DNA from: a virus
DNA: 20,833 bases
Virus record (IMG/VR): IMGVR_UViG_3300025949_001063
Span: 1 to 20,833 of that record
Strand: one strand, 5' to 3'
The notes below the pieces were generated by a model. It was not told the origin of the DNA and ran no database searches. It worked only from the letters and a program-made list of their open reading frames with translations. Each line of letters starts with the position of its first letter. The first letter of the stretch is position 1. Shown here in pieces: positions 8,309 to 15,490 of this stretch. Both the position numbers and the translations under genes were made by a program.

Positions 8309-10222
8309 TTAATTCCCTACTCGGATAATAGAAATACTATTGAGGTAATTCGGTCCTAATGCAGTAGTCGATGAATTAGACGATAACGCCAAAATATCTC
8401 CTGCTATGCAAGGAATAATATCAGAAATAGTTCCTGGGGCTCCTGCAGTAGCAGCATCGCCTTGACTATAAATAGAACCATTCAAAAGAATATAACTTGC
8501 TATTGCAGTACTACTGTATATTCTTCCAAATACTTCATATATCCCAGATACTGGGACGGTATAATTTCCCGTGGAAGTGTTGAATTGGTTATGTGTGTCC
8601 ACAAGCTTTGTATCATAGATATTTGGGGTTCCGTTATTAATCGCTGCGCCTGCTGTAGCTGTATATTTTGCTGCTACAGTTTCATTTGCAGCAATCACAG
8701 ATGGACCGGAAAGTCTATTAATTGAAAATGCAGTATTATAAGGAGCTGCATTACCTAAATAGGTGTTTCCTCCATTGTTAGCATAAATACCAATTGTATC
8801 CCCTGCATTCACTTTAAGAACAAATGAACCTGCTCCATATGTTCCTGTTGTTACCGAACATAGAGCAGTTAATGCTACACCATTCATTCTTGTTGTAGGT
8901 CCATCTCCACTACCTGAAGAAAGTAATCCCACAAAATCTATTTGATAATAACCGCTGACTGGAACAGTATATAATCCTGTGCTTATAGAATAGGCAGAAT
9001 GAGTATCTGAAATAATGGCATCAAATATTATAGGTGTATTTGCACTGGGAGTTACGTTTGCCGATAAACCTACTTGAGCGGCCACTACTCTTGTATCGGT
9101 ATCATTACTCAATTGTAAATCAGAAGACCAACCTGAAACTGGGAAAGTAGCATGAGCACGCCATTCTTGATTTGCAGTAGAAGCGCTAGGAGCTACAGGA
9201 TTAGAATCCCCAGCAGATTGCGTTCCTGCATTATCTGCATTAGTGAGGCTTAACGAGAATTGAGTAGTTGTTTCATAGGCAACTGTATAATTATACCAAG
9301 CATTCCCACCTCCCAGTTTAAGTGAAAATCCAGTGCCATAAGTAGGTCTAGCAGCTGTTGCCGCATTGGCAATTTTACTTGTATCTATGCTTATCCCTGA
9401 AGGGAGAGAAAAAAGATATTTCCCTGAACCTGAACCATAGGTAGTTGTCGTACCAGAAATTACTGCTGTTCTAAGTTCAATACTATCTCCGACTCTTCTC
9501 CATTGTCCTATCAGGGTCCCGTTTCCTATGGAAGGTGGCGTAGCAGTCGATGTCCAGATCGGAGTATAATCTTGCCAATCTGTCACAGCAGGCCCACTAT
9601 TTCTAGTCGGTCTTCCAAAGGTAAAGTTGTCAAATGACATGCTGAAATTGCCTGCAGGATCATTTCGAAGAACAATCGCAACCCTATATTGGTTTTTATT
9701 TGATGCATTTGAAACATCTGATTGAAAAGTAATTGATGGAGTTCTACCCGGTACAAGCGCCCCAGTTACTCCTTTAGTATTGATTGACCTGAAACCAGCA
9801 GGTTGATACCAGGTCCCTAAACCAACATTATAAAACCAAACTTCAACTGTTTGCGTAGAAGTTCCACTCACGTCCACATTTTGAGGATTTGTAATAAAAT
9901 TGTAATCAAATTGCACAGAGATCACTTTTGCAAGATAAGCATCAGTTAAAGTGATGGGATCAGAAATGACACCATATCCGTGTGAGCCTAGGTAGGCATT
10001 AATATTCATCACCAGACTTTCATTTCCAGACAAAGGATTTGTGGTAGTAGAAGTAATACTGATAATGCTAGTTCCAGTAATGGGGGTAATTGTAGTAGGT
10101 AATCCTCCCGTGAATGTAGTAACAAAGGTGCTCCATCCTGCCGTACCGCTTTCTCCTCCTCCATTAATTAAGAAATTCTGCTCTACTCCTAATTCTGCTT
10201 TATCTCGATTCGTAATACTCAT
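8309..10222 (-). CDS. Tail fibre with tandem C1q-like heads
   Basis: 637-residue fibre-type protein built of four parts. Residues 10-205 form a jelly-roll-like module (FLINGGGESGTAGW at the start, SFDNFTFG at the end) typical of carbohydrate-binding modules. Residues 212-370 form a beta domain found in phage fibres (DWQDYTPIW, GQWRRVGDSIEL, FSLPSGISID). Residues 384-505 and 515-636 are two related C1q/TNF-like domains sharing DTH...STG.YTVPVSG.Y, a later NG, AGD, and a closing strand (FSINRL, ISIIRVG). C1q-like heads form trimers, as phage fibres do. ATG at 10222 overlaps the previous stop by four bases. Receptor binding is the likely task; no depolymerase motif was seen. Confidence 0.7.
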   Translation of the reverse strand: MSITNRDKAELGVEQNFLINGGGESGTAGWSTFVTTFTGGLPTTITPITGTSIISITSTTTNPLSGNESLVMNINAYLGSHGYGVISDPITLTDAYLAKVISVQFDYNFITNPQNVDVSGTSTQTVEVWFYNVGLGTWYQPAGFRSINTKGVTGALVPGRTPSITFQSDVSNASNKNQYRVAIVLRNDPAGNFSMSFDNFTFGRPTRNSGPAVTDWQDYTPIWTSTATPPSIGNGTLIGQWRRVGDSIELRTAVISGTTTTYGSGSGKYLFSLPSGISIDTSKIANAATAARPTYGTGFSLKLGGGNAWYNYTVAYETTTQFSLSLTNADNAGTQSAGDSNPVAPSASTANQEWRAHATFPVSGWSSDLQLSNDTDTRVVAAQVGLSANVTPSANTPIIFDAIISDTHSAYSISTGLYTVPVSGYYQIDFVGLLSSGSGDGPTTRMNGVALTALCSVTTGTYGAGSFVLKVNAGDTIGIYANNGGNTYLGNAAPYNTAFSINRLSGPSVIAANETVAAKYTATAGAAINNGTPNIYDTKLVDTHNQFNTSTGNYTVPVSGIYEVFGRIYSSTAIASYILLNGSIYSQGDAATAGAPGTISDIIPCIAGDILALSSNSSTTALGPNYLNSISIIRVGN

Positions 10223-11172: not shown

Positions 11173-11961
11173 TCACCCCCCGCTAAAACTCGTTAAATTG
11201 ACAATCAACCTAAATTTTAAAGGACCCGTCTCGTAAAAATTGGGCATCTGAGATGCGAGCATTTCGCTCATTTGATATCCTAATCCCTGATCTTCATATT
11301 GAGTAGAATCCAAAGTAACCGTCAATACATTCGTTGGATTAGCAATCTCTGGCGTAAAATCAAAAGGTCTCTGTTGAATAGACCATAAGAAAAAACTTTT
11401 CCAAGCAGCAAGATTTGCCTTTGGCTCGTACTTATATTCAACATTCACGAAAAATTGTGTATTAAATGTGACTGCTTCTTTGAGTCCTGAAGCTGAAACA
11501 TTCACTGCTCCAAAAATTTTAGATTGATTTGTATTATCCAGATAATTGTATCCGATGAATTCAGGAATTAATGTTGATCCAGTTGTAAATAAACCAATGT
11601 AGGTTGTTGATCCTGTATAATCAGATGGGTTAAAGCCCATAATTGCAGAAGCGCTAATATTGAAATTAGGACCTGTTCCAAATAGAAGACTTAAAAATGT
11701 TCCATTCGTTGAGATGATCACTCTATTCTGTGTTCCGCCCATTACTGTTCTATTTACACTCACTGAGTAAATATTCCCGAGTGTGTCTACACTTTGCATT
11801 TCAAAAGCAATTTCTTGAGCTAAACTTGCTGGGGAATAAAATCCTAAATTAAGAGTTGCGGTCAATGTAAGACCACCACTTGCCGCTTTGAAATCGATTT
11901 TATTATTCAGGGCTGTCACCTGAATTCCATACGTAAATAAACTTTTAGATGCTAAAGCCAT
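11173..11961 (-). CDS. Tail protein in the distal-tail (Dit) position
   Basis: 262-residue beta-rich protein, not recognised from motifs. Visible features are a segment with FYSPASLAQEIAFEMQSVD (about 41-59) and a C-terminal domain containing VTLDSTQYEDQGLGYQMSEM and a closing strand LKFRLIVNL. The gene starts immediately after the tape-measure stop (TAA ATG). In many siphophages the next gene after the tape measure encodes the distal tail protein that caps the tube, and the length is right for that. The call rests on order only. A baseplate or fibre adaptor is the alternative. Confidence 0.5.
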   Translation of the reverse strand: MALASKSLFTYGIQVTALNNKIDFKAASGGLTLTATLNLGFYSPASLAQEIAFEMQSVDTLGNIYSVSVNRTVMGGTQNRVIISTNGTFLSLLFGTGPNFNISASAIMGFNPSDYTGSTTYIGLFTTGSTLIPEFIGYNYLDNTNQSKIFGAVNVSASGLKEAVTFNTQFFVNVEYKYEPKANLAAWKSFFLWSIQQRPFDFTPEIANPTNVLTVTLDSTQYEDQGLGYQMSEMLASQMPNFYETGPLKFRLIVNLTSFSGG

Positions 11962-13893
11962 TTACGCCCCAATCTGATTGTAGTTGAATCCAGTTGCATC
12001 TGATTCTTGCCTCATGAGATCCATCAACATCCGTTTTGTGGAATCCGTTTCTAAATAGTTTCCTGAAATATTCACGGTTACAATTCTTTGAGGAGCCTGC
12101 TGTTGATCCATGCTCGCAGTTGCTTGAGGTGTGGCCTGAGAAGTATCCGTAGATGCTGAAGATATGGGGGCTATAGGCGCAGCCGAACCAGAAGCGATTG
12201 CTTGGGGAGAAGGAGCGGTAGCAACAGTTGAGGGAGTAGATGCACCTCCCGCCGCGCTCCCAGCTGCTTTAAGGGCCCCACCGAGAGCAATTAATGCCGC
12301 ACCTCCACCTAATGCTAATGGATTAGGAGGCCAAATTCCTGACAACATCATGACCGTACCTTCTGCAATGGCTCGGTCTCCTAAGAATCCTAAGAAAAAA
12401 CCGGCTAATGCAGAGGCAACGTTTTGACCTAGATCCTTTTGTGCAACCATCCCCGCACCAATCGACTCAAAAGCAGAGGTAGCATTCACAGAAAGTGAAT
12501 TCCACATTTCGGTTCCTCTTTTACCGAAATCTTCCTGCTCCATTTTCATCTTTTGAGTATTGGCTTTAAATGTTCTCTCAATTCCCTGAAAGATCGTTTT
12601 TGAATTTTTAGCGTAGTTATCTAAAAGCTTGAGTCTCAATGCTGCAGAATTTTTCTCATCATTCTCCATCTGCTCGTTAAAACGTTTATTCTCCATCACC
12701 TCGAGCTGCTTCTTTTGTTTTCGATCTAAGGAGGCATTGCTTTGGATGGCTTTCAAATTTGAGATATGTTGTCTCTCAGCCATTTCTGTTTGTTTTTTGA
12801 CGAGCTGATCGATTTGAGCAAAAGACTGAACACTTTGTTGTTGTTCTTTAAAATACTGCTGATCGATTTTCGACATTTCCTGCCGGAAAGTTTGTTGATT
12901 TTTCTTTTGTTTTTCTTGATCAACAATGGATGCCTGAGAAACCTTTTTAATATTGTCAATCGATTTATTTGTGGCAACTTCTTCTTTTTTAGTGAGTTCA
13001 TCAACTGATTTTCCTGCTAAGATGGCCTTTGCCTTAGCGGCTTCAGCTCCATCACCGATAGATGCTTGAACATGAAGCTTAAGTTGGGTTGCTAAATTTT
13101 GAACGGTCCCCAAAAACTTCCTCATTCCAGGACCAATCGTTTTTTCGAAAGCGAGAGTAAATGTCTCTCCAATTTCAGAAAACGTTGTCTTTAAGCTTTG
13201 AAGAATTGAAGTTGCTGATTTCGCATTGAGAGTGACGTCCTTAAACCCTGCATTCCCTTTTTCTAAGAAAGCATTGAGAATCGCTTGCTGCTTTCCTGCT
13301 TGAGAAAGCTGATCTGCGGTAGTTCCATTCGCATCAGCGAAATCCTTCTCTGCTTTGGTTGCATCAATGATAATCCCGTAATGCTTGAGCATTCGGGTAT
13401 TTCCATTCGCGATAGCATTAGTAATTTCTTCAAAATTGGTTTTGGCATCTCCGCCATAAACCTGAGTTGCTTTTCTCGCAATTTCTAGGATTTGAGGAAG
13501 CTTATCGGCAGAACCTCCCATTTTGACGATGGCCTCATTGGAGATCTTCAAAAGATCATTCGTGCTAATGAGTCCACCTGAAGCTTTTTCTAGTCCTTCT
13601 TTAAGTTTCTCTGGAGCAATTCCTGCTTGTTGCGACAACAACTCAAATTGATTGTTGACTCGCTCGATCTGTTCTCCTTCTACTGTCAAATCAATGGCTT
13701 TTTTAAATGCGAAAGCAGAAACACCCAACGCTCCCAAGATGGGGGCGGCTACTGTCAGTCCTTCAATGAGTCCGGAAAGACTTTCTTCACTTCCTAATTT
13801 TTCAATAATCCCTTTGGCCTGAAGTCCCTTTTCTGTAAATTCAGCAACATCCAAATCGAGAAGAAATGATACTTTATCACTTTCATCAGCCAT
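11962..13893 (-). CDS. Tail tape measure protein
   Basis: Tape measure of 643 residues that sets tail length and is packed inside the tube until DNA ejection. A hydrophobic stretch occurs at about 44-66 (TVAAPILGALGVSAFAFKKA). The PELE-like segment with LSQQAGIAPEKLKEGLEKAS and the NFEEITNAIANGNTRMLKHYG block (about 155-175) are typical of tape measures. Gln/Lys-rich coiled coil covers about 290-470 and a hydrophobic Ala/Gly segment about 488-555. A low-complexity Ser/Ala/Pro linker precedes the end domain. At about 1.5 angstrom per residue it predicts a tail near 95 nm. It starts 8 bases inside the chaperone GT frame, with AAAGGAC as ribosome site. Confidence 0.88.
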   Translation of the reverse strand: MADESDKVSFLLDLDVAEFTEKGLQAKGIIEKLGSEESLSGLIEGLTVAAPILGALGVSAFAFKKAIDLTVEGEQIERVNNQFELLSQQAGIAPEKLKEGLEKASGGLISTNDLLKISNEAIVKMGGSADKLPQILEIARKATQVYGGDAKTNFEEITNAIANGNTRMLKHYGIIIDATKAEKDFADANGTTADQLSQAGKQQAILNAFLEKGNAGFKDVTLNAKSATSILQSLKTTFSEIGETFTLAFEKTIGPGMRKFLGTVQNLATQLKLHVQASIGDGAEAAKAKAILAGKSVDELTKKEEVATNKSIDNIKKVSQASIVDQEKQKKNQQTFRQEMSKIDQQYFKEQQQSVQSFAQIDQLVKKQTEMAERQHISNLKAIQSNASLDRKQKKQLEVMENKRFNEQMENDEKNSAALRLKLLDNYAKNSKTIFQGIERTFKANTQKMKMEQEDFGKRGTEMWNSLSVNATSAFESIGAGMVAQKDLGQNVASALAGFFLGFLGDRAIAEGTVMMLSGIWPPNPLALGGGAALIALGGALKAAGSAAGGASTPSTVATAPSPQAIASGSAAPIAPISSASTDTSQATPQATASMDQQQAPQRIVTVNISGNYLETDSTKRMLMDLMRQESDATGFNYNQIGA

Positions 13894-14640
13894 ATCCTAA
13901 AGTCCTTTTGAAAGATCCAAATACACTTCTCATAATCAGTTGAGCGTCTGGACCGGCGGCATCGAGGTGCATCGAAGGAGGTTGAGGAGGAAGTCGATTC
14001 GGTTTATCTTGATAAATGATTGCGTTATATCGTGATCTAAGTTCTTTGTAGTACTGAAAGCTACTCTTAGAAGCCATAGAGATATCTAGAGTTTCTCTAA
14101 ATTGAGCAGCTTCCATTTTTGTTGCTTCTTTATGCATCTTTCCAAATGCTTTCATGGGCATTTTTAAAGTCTGTTGATAATCCCATTTATAAAAGTAGCA
14201 GACAAAAGCAATCGCTGGAATTAAGGAGATTTCAATGGTGGAATCAATGGATTTTTTTTTTCATCCTTATCATAGAGTCCAGGATCTCCAGCTAATTGCC
14301 GCATGACGAGTTGAATGAGTTGATTCAATAAAAAGAAGGGTAATGACTTTAAATCTTCGAACTCAAAATCTGGAACCAAAGGATGGATGAGATCATAGTA
14401 TTTATGGTAGACCTCATTCTGAGGTAGAGGGTCTCCTTGTGATCTTGAAGTTACCATTTCTAGAAGATTCCTATATGCAAGAGTAATTTGCATGTAGTTT
14501 TCTACTGAAACGTTATTGATCAAATAATATTTATTTTTAAACTTAAAGCCGATTTTTTCACCTACAAGAGCATCAAAATCACAGACAATCTTCATCTGTG
14601 GAATGGGTTCTGCTTGTGCTCTTGCAGGTTTAAATATCAT
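13886..14640 (-). CDS. Tail assembly chaperone GT, -1 frameshift product
   Basis: A second frame, open from the A10 run at 14252-14261 to the TGA at 13886-13888, continues the chaperone gene if ribosomes slip back one base. The joined protein would be residues 1-129 of the upstream chaperone, then 31 residues with no stop (KSIDSTIEISLIPAIAFVCY onward), then the 91-residue segment starting MPMKAFGKM: about 251 residues. This matches the G/GT arrangement of lambda and many siphophages, located between the tail tube and tape-measure genes. The internal ATG at 14161 has no good ribosome site, which supports expression by frameshift rather than independent start. The extension ends 8 bases inside the tape-measure start. 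The T part would help load tube subunits onto the tape measure. Confidence 0.75.
14221..14640 (-). CDS. Tail assembly chaperone G
   Basis: 139-residue unshifted product of the chaperone gene. It starts at ATG 14640 behind GAGGG and ends at TAA 14221-14223, a few codons after the slippery run. The sequence is helical after a beta-like start (MKIVCDFDALVGEKIGFKFK) and contains a hydrophobic LKSLPFFLLNQLIQLVMRQL segment near the end. Individual motifs are not diagnostic; the call rests on position between tail tube and tape measure, on size and on the frameshift signal. Such proteins act in the cytoplasm during tail assembly and are absent from virions. Confidence 0.72.
   Translation of the reverse strand: MIFKPARAQAEPIPQMKIVCDFDALVGEKIGFKFKNKYYLINNVSVENYMQITLAYRNLLEMVTSRSQGDPLPQNEVYHKYYDLIHPLVPDFEFEDLKSLPFFLLNQLIQLVMRQLAGDPGLYDKDEKKNPLIPPLKSP
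14252..14261 (-). other. Slippery A10 run, programmed -1 frameshift site
   Basis: On the coding strand ten consecutive A lie in the codons GAA AAA AAA AAT, allowing A-AAA-AAA slippage. Stepping back one base changes the following codons to AAA TCC ATT GAT, a frame that stays open through to the tape-measure start. No stable downstream stem-loop was picked out by eye; A-rich slippage can work without one. Confidence 0.75.
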
Positions 14641-14647
14641 TTTCCCT

Positions 14648-15490
14648 CTACGTATAGTTTGCGGCTGTCGTTGAAATTGCGTAACTATCTCCTACTGCTG
14701 CATGAGGAGATGCATCATTCACCGTGAATCCAATTTCGTTTCCGAAGGCTGAAAAGGAGACACCCACCGTTGCTGACCCCAGCGGTCCGGAAAGAGACCC
14801 ATTGACATTGAATAATCCACTCGCGCCCGCTGTTACGCAAAGCAAAGTAATCGTTTCTGTCTTCGTAGCGCCGTTGTTCACGGTAATTCCCGTTACAGTA
14901 TCAGCACCAACATTGCCAGTCCCAGCAGTAGCAGCGCCAGCAGAGGCGTTGACAAGACCGACAGATGGATCGCCATATAAACAAAATCGTGGAGGCTGAG
15001 TCGTAAAATCTGGGTAAACATCAAATGTCACTTTCAGTTTTTGTTGTTCGGTAGATGAAAAATCGAGCTGAGAACTCGGCATAGCCGTTGCCAAGTAAAC
15101 ATAGAAGTCAGTCGATTTATCTGAGTTTGTCTTGGAAAGAGGGTGAAGAATGAGTGGGCCCCCTAAAGCGGCCATATGTTGGCCTACTTGAGAGTCAAAA
15201 TACATCATGGTGTTTCCATTTTGAGTGACTAGCTTATGCGCTGGAAAAACCACTTTCCAATTCGCTTTCAGCTGAACCTCATCCAAAGCGGTTTCTATAG
15301 TCACTTTGAACCCAGAAACGACGTTATCGATGATGGTATCTCCCAATTGATCTGCTTTGAGAGGAGATAACTTCTCTTCAATCTTGACAGTGACTTTATC
15401 GGTAGCTCCGAGATCGACGCCTTTATACGTCACTCGGCAGGGTGATAGCTCAAAATTACCTGGCGTAATCGTTGAAAAGCTGGTCGACAT
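14648..15490 (-). CDS. Major tail tube protein with extra C-terminal domain
   Basis: 280-residue tail tube subunit that forms the rings of the tail. The N-terminal part (about 1-175) has tube-protein features: CRVTYKGVDLGATDKVTVKI near the start, VSGFKVTIETALDE (58-71) and a closing LKVTFDVYPDF (152-162). Residues about 188-277 form an added domain: GNVGADTVTGITVNNGA, TETITLLCVTAGASGLFNVN, LGSATVGVSFSAFGNEIGFTVN, VGDSYAIS. That pattern is a decoration-type beta domain found on other phage structural proteins and would project from the tail surface. The coding DNA of this part looks richer in G+C than its neighbours. Ribosome site AGGGAG. It is immediately followed by the chaperone gene. Confidence 0.83.
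   Translation of the reverse strand: MSTSFSTITPGNFELSPCRVTYKGVDLGATDKVTVKIEEKLSPLKADQLGDTIIDNVVSGFKVTIETALDEVQLKANWKVVFPAHKLVTQNGNTMMYFDSQVGQHMAALGGPLILHPLSKTNSDKSTDFYVYLATAMPSSQLDFSSTEQQKLKVTFDVYPDFTTQPPRFCLYGDPSVGLVNASAGAATAGTGNVGADTVTGITVNNGATKTETITLLCVTAGASGLFNVNGSLSGPLGSATVGVSFSAFGNEIGFTVNDASPHAAVGDSYAISTTAANYT

Follow-up and report, generated by a model that had tools for sequence, protein, structure and literature searches.

The G/GT shift of tail assembly chaperones is a textbook ribosomal frameshift. In phage lambda, the partner of gpG is the tape measure and that of the T part of the fusion is the tail tube protein, and conserved frameshifts in tail assembly chaperones are attributed to Xu, Hendrix and Duda (2004, as cited in PMC5009743). 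Long homopolymers offer a different way to change frame: the RNA:DNA hybrid in bacterial RNA polymerase measures 9-10 bp, and efficient slippage has been reported on nine A or T (PMC5009743). Baranov and colleagues considered a run of nine that is conserved among homologues very likely to reflect purposeful transcriptional slippage (PMC1088944), Antonov and colleagues infer transcriptional slippage for dnaX genes with A10 (PMC3711429), and slippage in tssM1 amounts to 20-25% (for tssM1 and spa13, see PMC4256274, PMC5009743 and PMC6260861). Both the G/GT pair and transcriptional slippage on A9-A11, in dnaX, IS elements, spa13 and tssM, are thus already known; a literature search that covered few subscription papers did not turn up transcriptional slippage in tail chaperones or as a family-wide feature of phages. 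The locus described here lies in a 20.8 kb IMG/VR phage contig (the window: the whole stretch of 20,833 nucleotides that was analysed). Judged from its sequence and that of its relatives, it probably encodes a lambda-type G/GT pair of chaperones, and RNA-polymerase slippage would be the main source of the fusion.

Gene order, the A10 tract and relatives of the locus

On the minus strand, the genes follow one another from capsid (19208-17910) through the head-tail genes and the tail tube gene to G, T and the tape measure (Table 1). The T stop codon (13888-13886) overlaps the tape-measure ATG (at 13893) by 8 nt (ATGGCTGA), and most relatives have an overlap of 4-8 nt at this point; because the overlap recurs, synthesis of GT and translation of the tape measure may be coupled. 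In the tail tube protein (window 14648-15490), the C-terminal part (Ig-like families) is optional, the alignment being limited to about residues 1-180 in L025, L026, L032, L036, L038, L042 and L043. Elsewhere in the window, a tail-region protein (8309-10222) has a C1q domain (PF00386, 9.5e-12) and is a probable receptor-binding or adhesive head, and 85-1146 encodes a RecT recombinase that has a weak GemA-like hit close to the C-terminal end.

Table 1. Features of the G/T region, in window coordinates
Feature	Position	Strand	Basis or remark
Putative major tail (tube) protein, just upstream of G	14648..15490	-	phrog_2175 (E 3.8e-17), phrog_1280; relatives keep the gene order
G frame, putative short product of the tail assembly chaperone gene, 139 aa	14221..14640	-	phrog_893; model pLDDT 87; BFVD; 40 distinct homologues
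A10 slippage tract (T10 on the + strand)	14252..14261	-	zero frame GAT GAA AAA AAA AAT; 9, 10 or 12 A in 40/40 homologues
Third-frame (+1) stop directly after the run	14245..14251	-	ATC CAT TGA; would end opposite-slip products
T frame, -1 to G, including stop; C-terminal half of the G-T fusion (about 251 aa)	13886..14253	-	
Tape measure protein candidate	11962..13893	-	position, length, synteny; no family match of its own

The ATG of G is preceded by GAGGG. Its family, phrog_893 (function unknown), was matched by 16/16 G homologues tested, and the best named BFVD matches of the G model are tail assembly chaperones, at moderate scores (probability up to 1.0, E 5e-3 to 1e-2); neither the G nor the T model had a match below E 0.9 among solved structures (PDB), and no named relative was found for T. 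The putative chaperone roles of G and T are assigned, as in lambda, from position and architecture.

As the earlier note had read, ten A's lie just before the chaperone stop, and the -1 frame stays open from there into the frame beginning MPMKAFGKM and on to the tape-measure start (124 codons, from the run to 13886); the gap of 59 bases that it gave between the two genes is that between the end of G and the T ATG (14220-14162). The run sits 28 nt upstream of the G stop codon, the 3' end of the gene reading GAT GAA AAA AAA AAT CCA TTG ATT CCA CCA TTG AAA TCT CCT TAA, and in the window the third frame is closed after it. It is the sole run of at least nine A or T in the window. Since 2.65 A9 matches are expected in shuffles, one such run is in itself unsurprising, and the weight of the argument rests on position and conservation.

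The fused G-T protein as a query found only four contigs, from other metagenomes in IMG/VR, all of them identical to the window across 755 nt and all with the same A10. Further loci were collected through the capsid, and G and T profiles built from the first set then found 40 distinct G genes. The pair is present at every locus whose capsid is more than about 40% identical and whose sequence extends far enough downstream; the loci that lack it all have capsids less than 35% identical. No isolated relative beyond 25% capsid identity was found among 50,697 phage records. As to the host, a relative was found only in one Cytophagales MAG, with no other in 395 genomes of the same class, and is probably a binned phage contig. 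A capsid gene copy on a Cytophagales MAG contig (L116/L169) contains one in-frame TAA and is a decayed or misassembled relative.

Conservation of the A run and the slipping machine

The junction is one uninterrupted A run in 40/40 homologues, with 9 (15 cases), 10 (24) or 12 (1, L021) residues and never 7 or 8; one of the A9 cases (L157) is cut by the contig end and is a lower bound. In that locus, the contig ends within the poly-A run (11797-11806), perhaps because assembly breaks at homopolymers. On the coding strand of the same loci outside the junctions (543 kb), by comparison, there are 96 A7, 41 A8 and 4 A9 runs, and none of A10 or more. For the first 27 loci, a first-order expectation gives 18 runs of A9 or longer, whereas 3 were seen outside the junctions; such runs are thus avoided except at the junction.

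What is conserved is neither a codon phase nor a peptide. The run begins in all three codon phases and encodes EKKK, EKKN, EKKT, EKKS, QKKN, KKK, SKKK, GKKK, VKKK or AKKK, and outside it AAA accounts for only 55% of lysine codons, which argues for selection on the nucleotides rather than on the residues. The base that follows is C in 18 cases, G in 16 and T in 5. Along a tree of 36 G-T proteins whose branches sum to 41 substitutions per site, there were at least 7 shifts in run length, 6 in phase and 20 in the flanking bases, counts that are approximate because deep forks are weakly supported, and the run never fell below nine. Run length is therefore kept among the homologues more than the neighbouring sequence is, and the conservation of a heptamer in a single phase is absent: the run is always at least nine, in three phases, with its last base free.

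This conservation of homopolymer length, not of a heptamer in one phase, points to RNA-polymerase slippage, and lengths of 9 and 10 agree with the 9-10 bp hybrid of the bacterial enzyme. Transcription of the T10 tract would leave the hybrid in the host polymerase composed entirely of rA:dT, which would let the transcript slip register, so that a fraction of mRNAs would gain one A or lose two. Unslipped mRNA would give G; slipped mRNA would give the G-T fusion by ordinary translation; and mRNA slipped into the third frame would stop within a few codons, its product being similar to G. If the parts act as they do in lambda, G would bind the tape measure and T the subunits of the tail tube. The polymerase rather than the ribosome as the main slipping machine, like the G:GT ratio and the chaperone roles, is what we infer from these patterns.

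Slippage in both directions predicts a harmless third frame. A third-frame stop lies within 3 codons past the run in 21/37 relatives, where control positions within these T frames give an expectation of 9.1 +/- 2.5 (p 5e-5, in a test that treats lineages as independent), and early stops in the zero frame after the run are not enriched. RNA structure upstream or downstream of the junction, including a downstream pseudoknot or stem-loop and an upstream nascent-RNA hairpin, showed no excess over control stretches, and none was conserved. Shine-Dalgarno (SD)-like motifs 4-18 nt upstream of the run occur in 9/40 homologues, as against 8% in controls, which may reflect ribosomal help in some lineages. 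PF00940 (T7-like RNA polymerase) had no match in 11 relatives of 34-42 kb, a weak negative, as control genomes gave none either.

The main alternative retains a -1 ribosomal frameshift of the lambda/dnaX kind, in which a tRNA-Lys tandem slips where A_AAA_AAA or A_AAA_AAG stands in phase, and a longer run only raises efficiency. Any A run of nine contains an in-phase A_AAA_AAA, so that a ribosomal slip is possible too, and this heptamer is present in every relative. Other points in its favour, which likewise count against polymerase slippage, are the SD-like motifs in a minority of lineages and the A_AAA_AAG of a Mu-like outgroup, whose run is A8G; in addition, tailed-phage chaperone shifts have been described as ribosomal, some of them without stimulators (PMC5009743). 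However, seven A's would be enough, as would six followed by a G, yet 0/40 junctions have 7 or 8, and just 4/141 other runs of at least seven reach nine. Nor is the strong AAAAAAG preferred, given the bases that follow the run; its phase moves among relatives, RNA structure does not exceed the controls, and early third-frame stops are not predicted. Were only a heptamer under selection, run lengths of 6 to 8 and a single phase would be expected, and neither is seen, which argues against a ribosome-only shift and makes this alternative unlikely. Thus the lambda-type reading of the earlier note stands as to the G/GT cassette with a shift on an A run, and is probably wrong as to the ribosomal mechanism, because a length of at least nine, not a heptamer, is kept.

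Another explanation is that ribosomes slide on poly-A in more than one direction, or that slippage by the polymerase and by the ribosome act together. Sliding of E. coli ribosomes on A runs is documented (PMC4363877), early third-frame stops would be favoured here as well, a point that also counts against polymerase slippage, and L021 has A12. But the same ribosomes slide robustly from A11 and little at A9 or A10 (PMC4363877), and 39/40 genes here have 9 or 10, so that we regard this explanation as improbable. A further point against polymerase slippage is that the E. coli enzyme slips less when the run is of A than when it is of T (PMC6260861).

RNA-polymerase slippage can be carried one step further, to a proposal that we consider evenly balanced between right and wrong: that this phage family has replaced the ribosomal G/GT shift by obligate polymerase slippage, with a run tuned to the 9-10 bp hybrid, a third-frame stop that disposes of wrong-way slips, and a product ratio that is set at transcription and depends on the host polymerase. 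If polymerase slippage is correct, it is the polymerase that can fix how much of one assembly protein is made relative to another, the same output having been moved to transcription. The family would then supply dozens of natural variants (A9, A10 and A12, in all phases, at 35-57% GC) with which to examine what RNA polymerase needs in order to slip. It would also carry a warning for annotation, as gene finders and heptamer-based frameshift tools would report a pair of unrelated genes or assign a mistaken mechanism.

Frame relation and coding of T

T is homologous and in the -1 frame in 37/37 relatives with a readable T, and in none of them is it in the zero frame, in +1 or separately initiated. 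The earlier note had expected a programmed -1 cassette of G and T between tail tube and tape measure, and this is conserved throughout these relatives, whose junctions, compared as it had suggested, contain no -1 stop and no separately initiated second gene. Its view that an A count of 9 would speak against the frameshift did not hold, since relatives with A9 keep the -1 relation.

The first start codon of the -1 frame in the window is the ATG at 14161, 30 codons past the run, where standard gene finders would call T. That T is a separate gene beginning there (MPMKAFGKM), with the open -1 frame upstream of it due to chance, is scarcely credible. This ATG has no SD sequence. The T model (pLDDT 88) has five helices, with residues 12-22 and 26-31 helical ahead of the internal Met 32, and the nearly invariant L30 and P33 (the L..MP motif) lie at that methionine; the first two conserved helices and the motif precede ATG 14161. 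In the relatives, 8 to 65 codons separate the run from the first T start codon, which is often far inside the domain. Between the run and the first start, substitutions in six related pairs are distributed 47/24/83 over T-frame codon positions 1/2/3, the third-position bias of the T frame being already present upstream of any start. Because the first T helices are conserved upstream of the first start codon, T cannot come from separate translation, and the missing SD, the upstream helices and the substitution pattern led us to reject a T gene with its own start.

Homopolymers mutate and are prone to error, but a break between G and T caused by sequencing error, decay or replication slippage (phase variation) can be dismissed: identity of five contigs across 755 nt makes an assembly indel unlikely, and the -1 relation holds in 37/37 relatives with a fused reading frame in 0, where phase variation would give in-frame contigs.

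Comparison with known systems

In the Mu-like tail chaperones (L105-L112, Klebsiella phage ST405-OXA48phi1.1), whose capsids are 22-31% identical, the pair likewise precedes the tape measure and has a -1 extension; by contrast, the run there is exactly eight followed by G, the classic A_AAA_AAG. The A8G junction of the Mu-like chaperones in L105-L112 and L168 has two A's beyond what A_AAA_AAG needs.

Lambda gpG/gpGT shares with this locus its place between the tube and tape measure genes, the overlap of two frames, a -1 shift near the end of G, and a short and a fused product. This likeness is one of position and architecture, with no sequence similarity to lambda claimed. The difference lies in the slip, which in lambda is ribosomal on GGGAAAG, whereas here the site is a homopolymer of 9-12 A, conserved in length and not in phase.

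Citrobacter rodentium tssM1 (A11) and Shigella spa13 (A10) make a short and a long form of one machine component, at a fixed ratio, by poly-A transcriptional slippage of the kind proposed here, although they are isolated cases in bacterial secretion genes and not family-wide in phages. Thermus thermophilus dnaX and bacterial IS elements with A9 share the conserved A9-A10, the -1 extension and the dispensability of stimulators (PMC5009743, PMC3711429, PMC1088944). Programmed transcriptional realignment in dnaX and IS elements entails heterogeneous mRNA, as would be expected in the phage family here; those are, however, a replication gene and transposases, whereas the present gene serves virion assembly in a family of phages.
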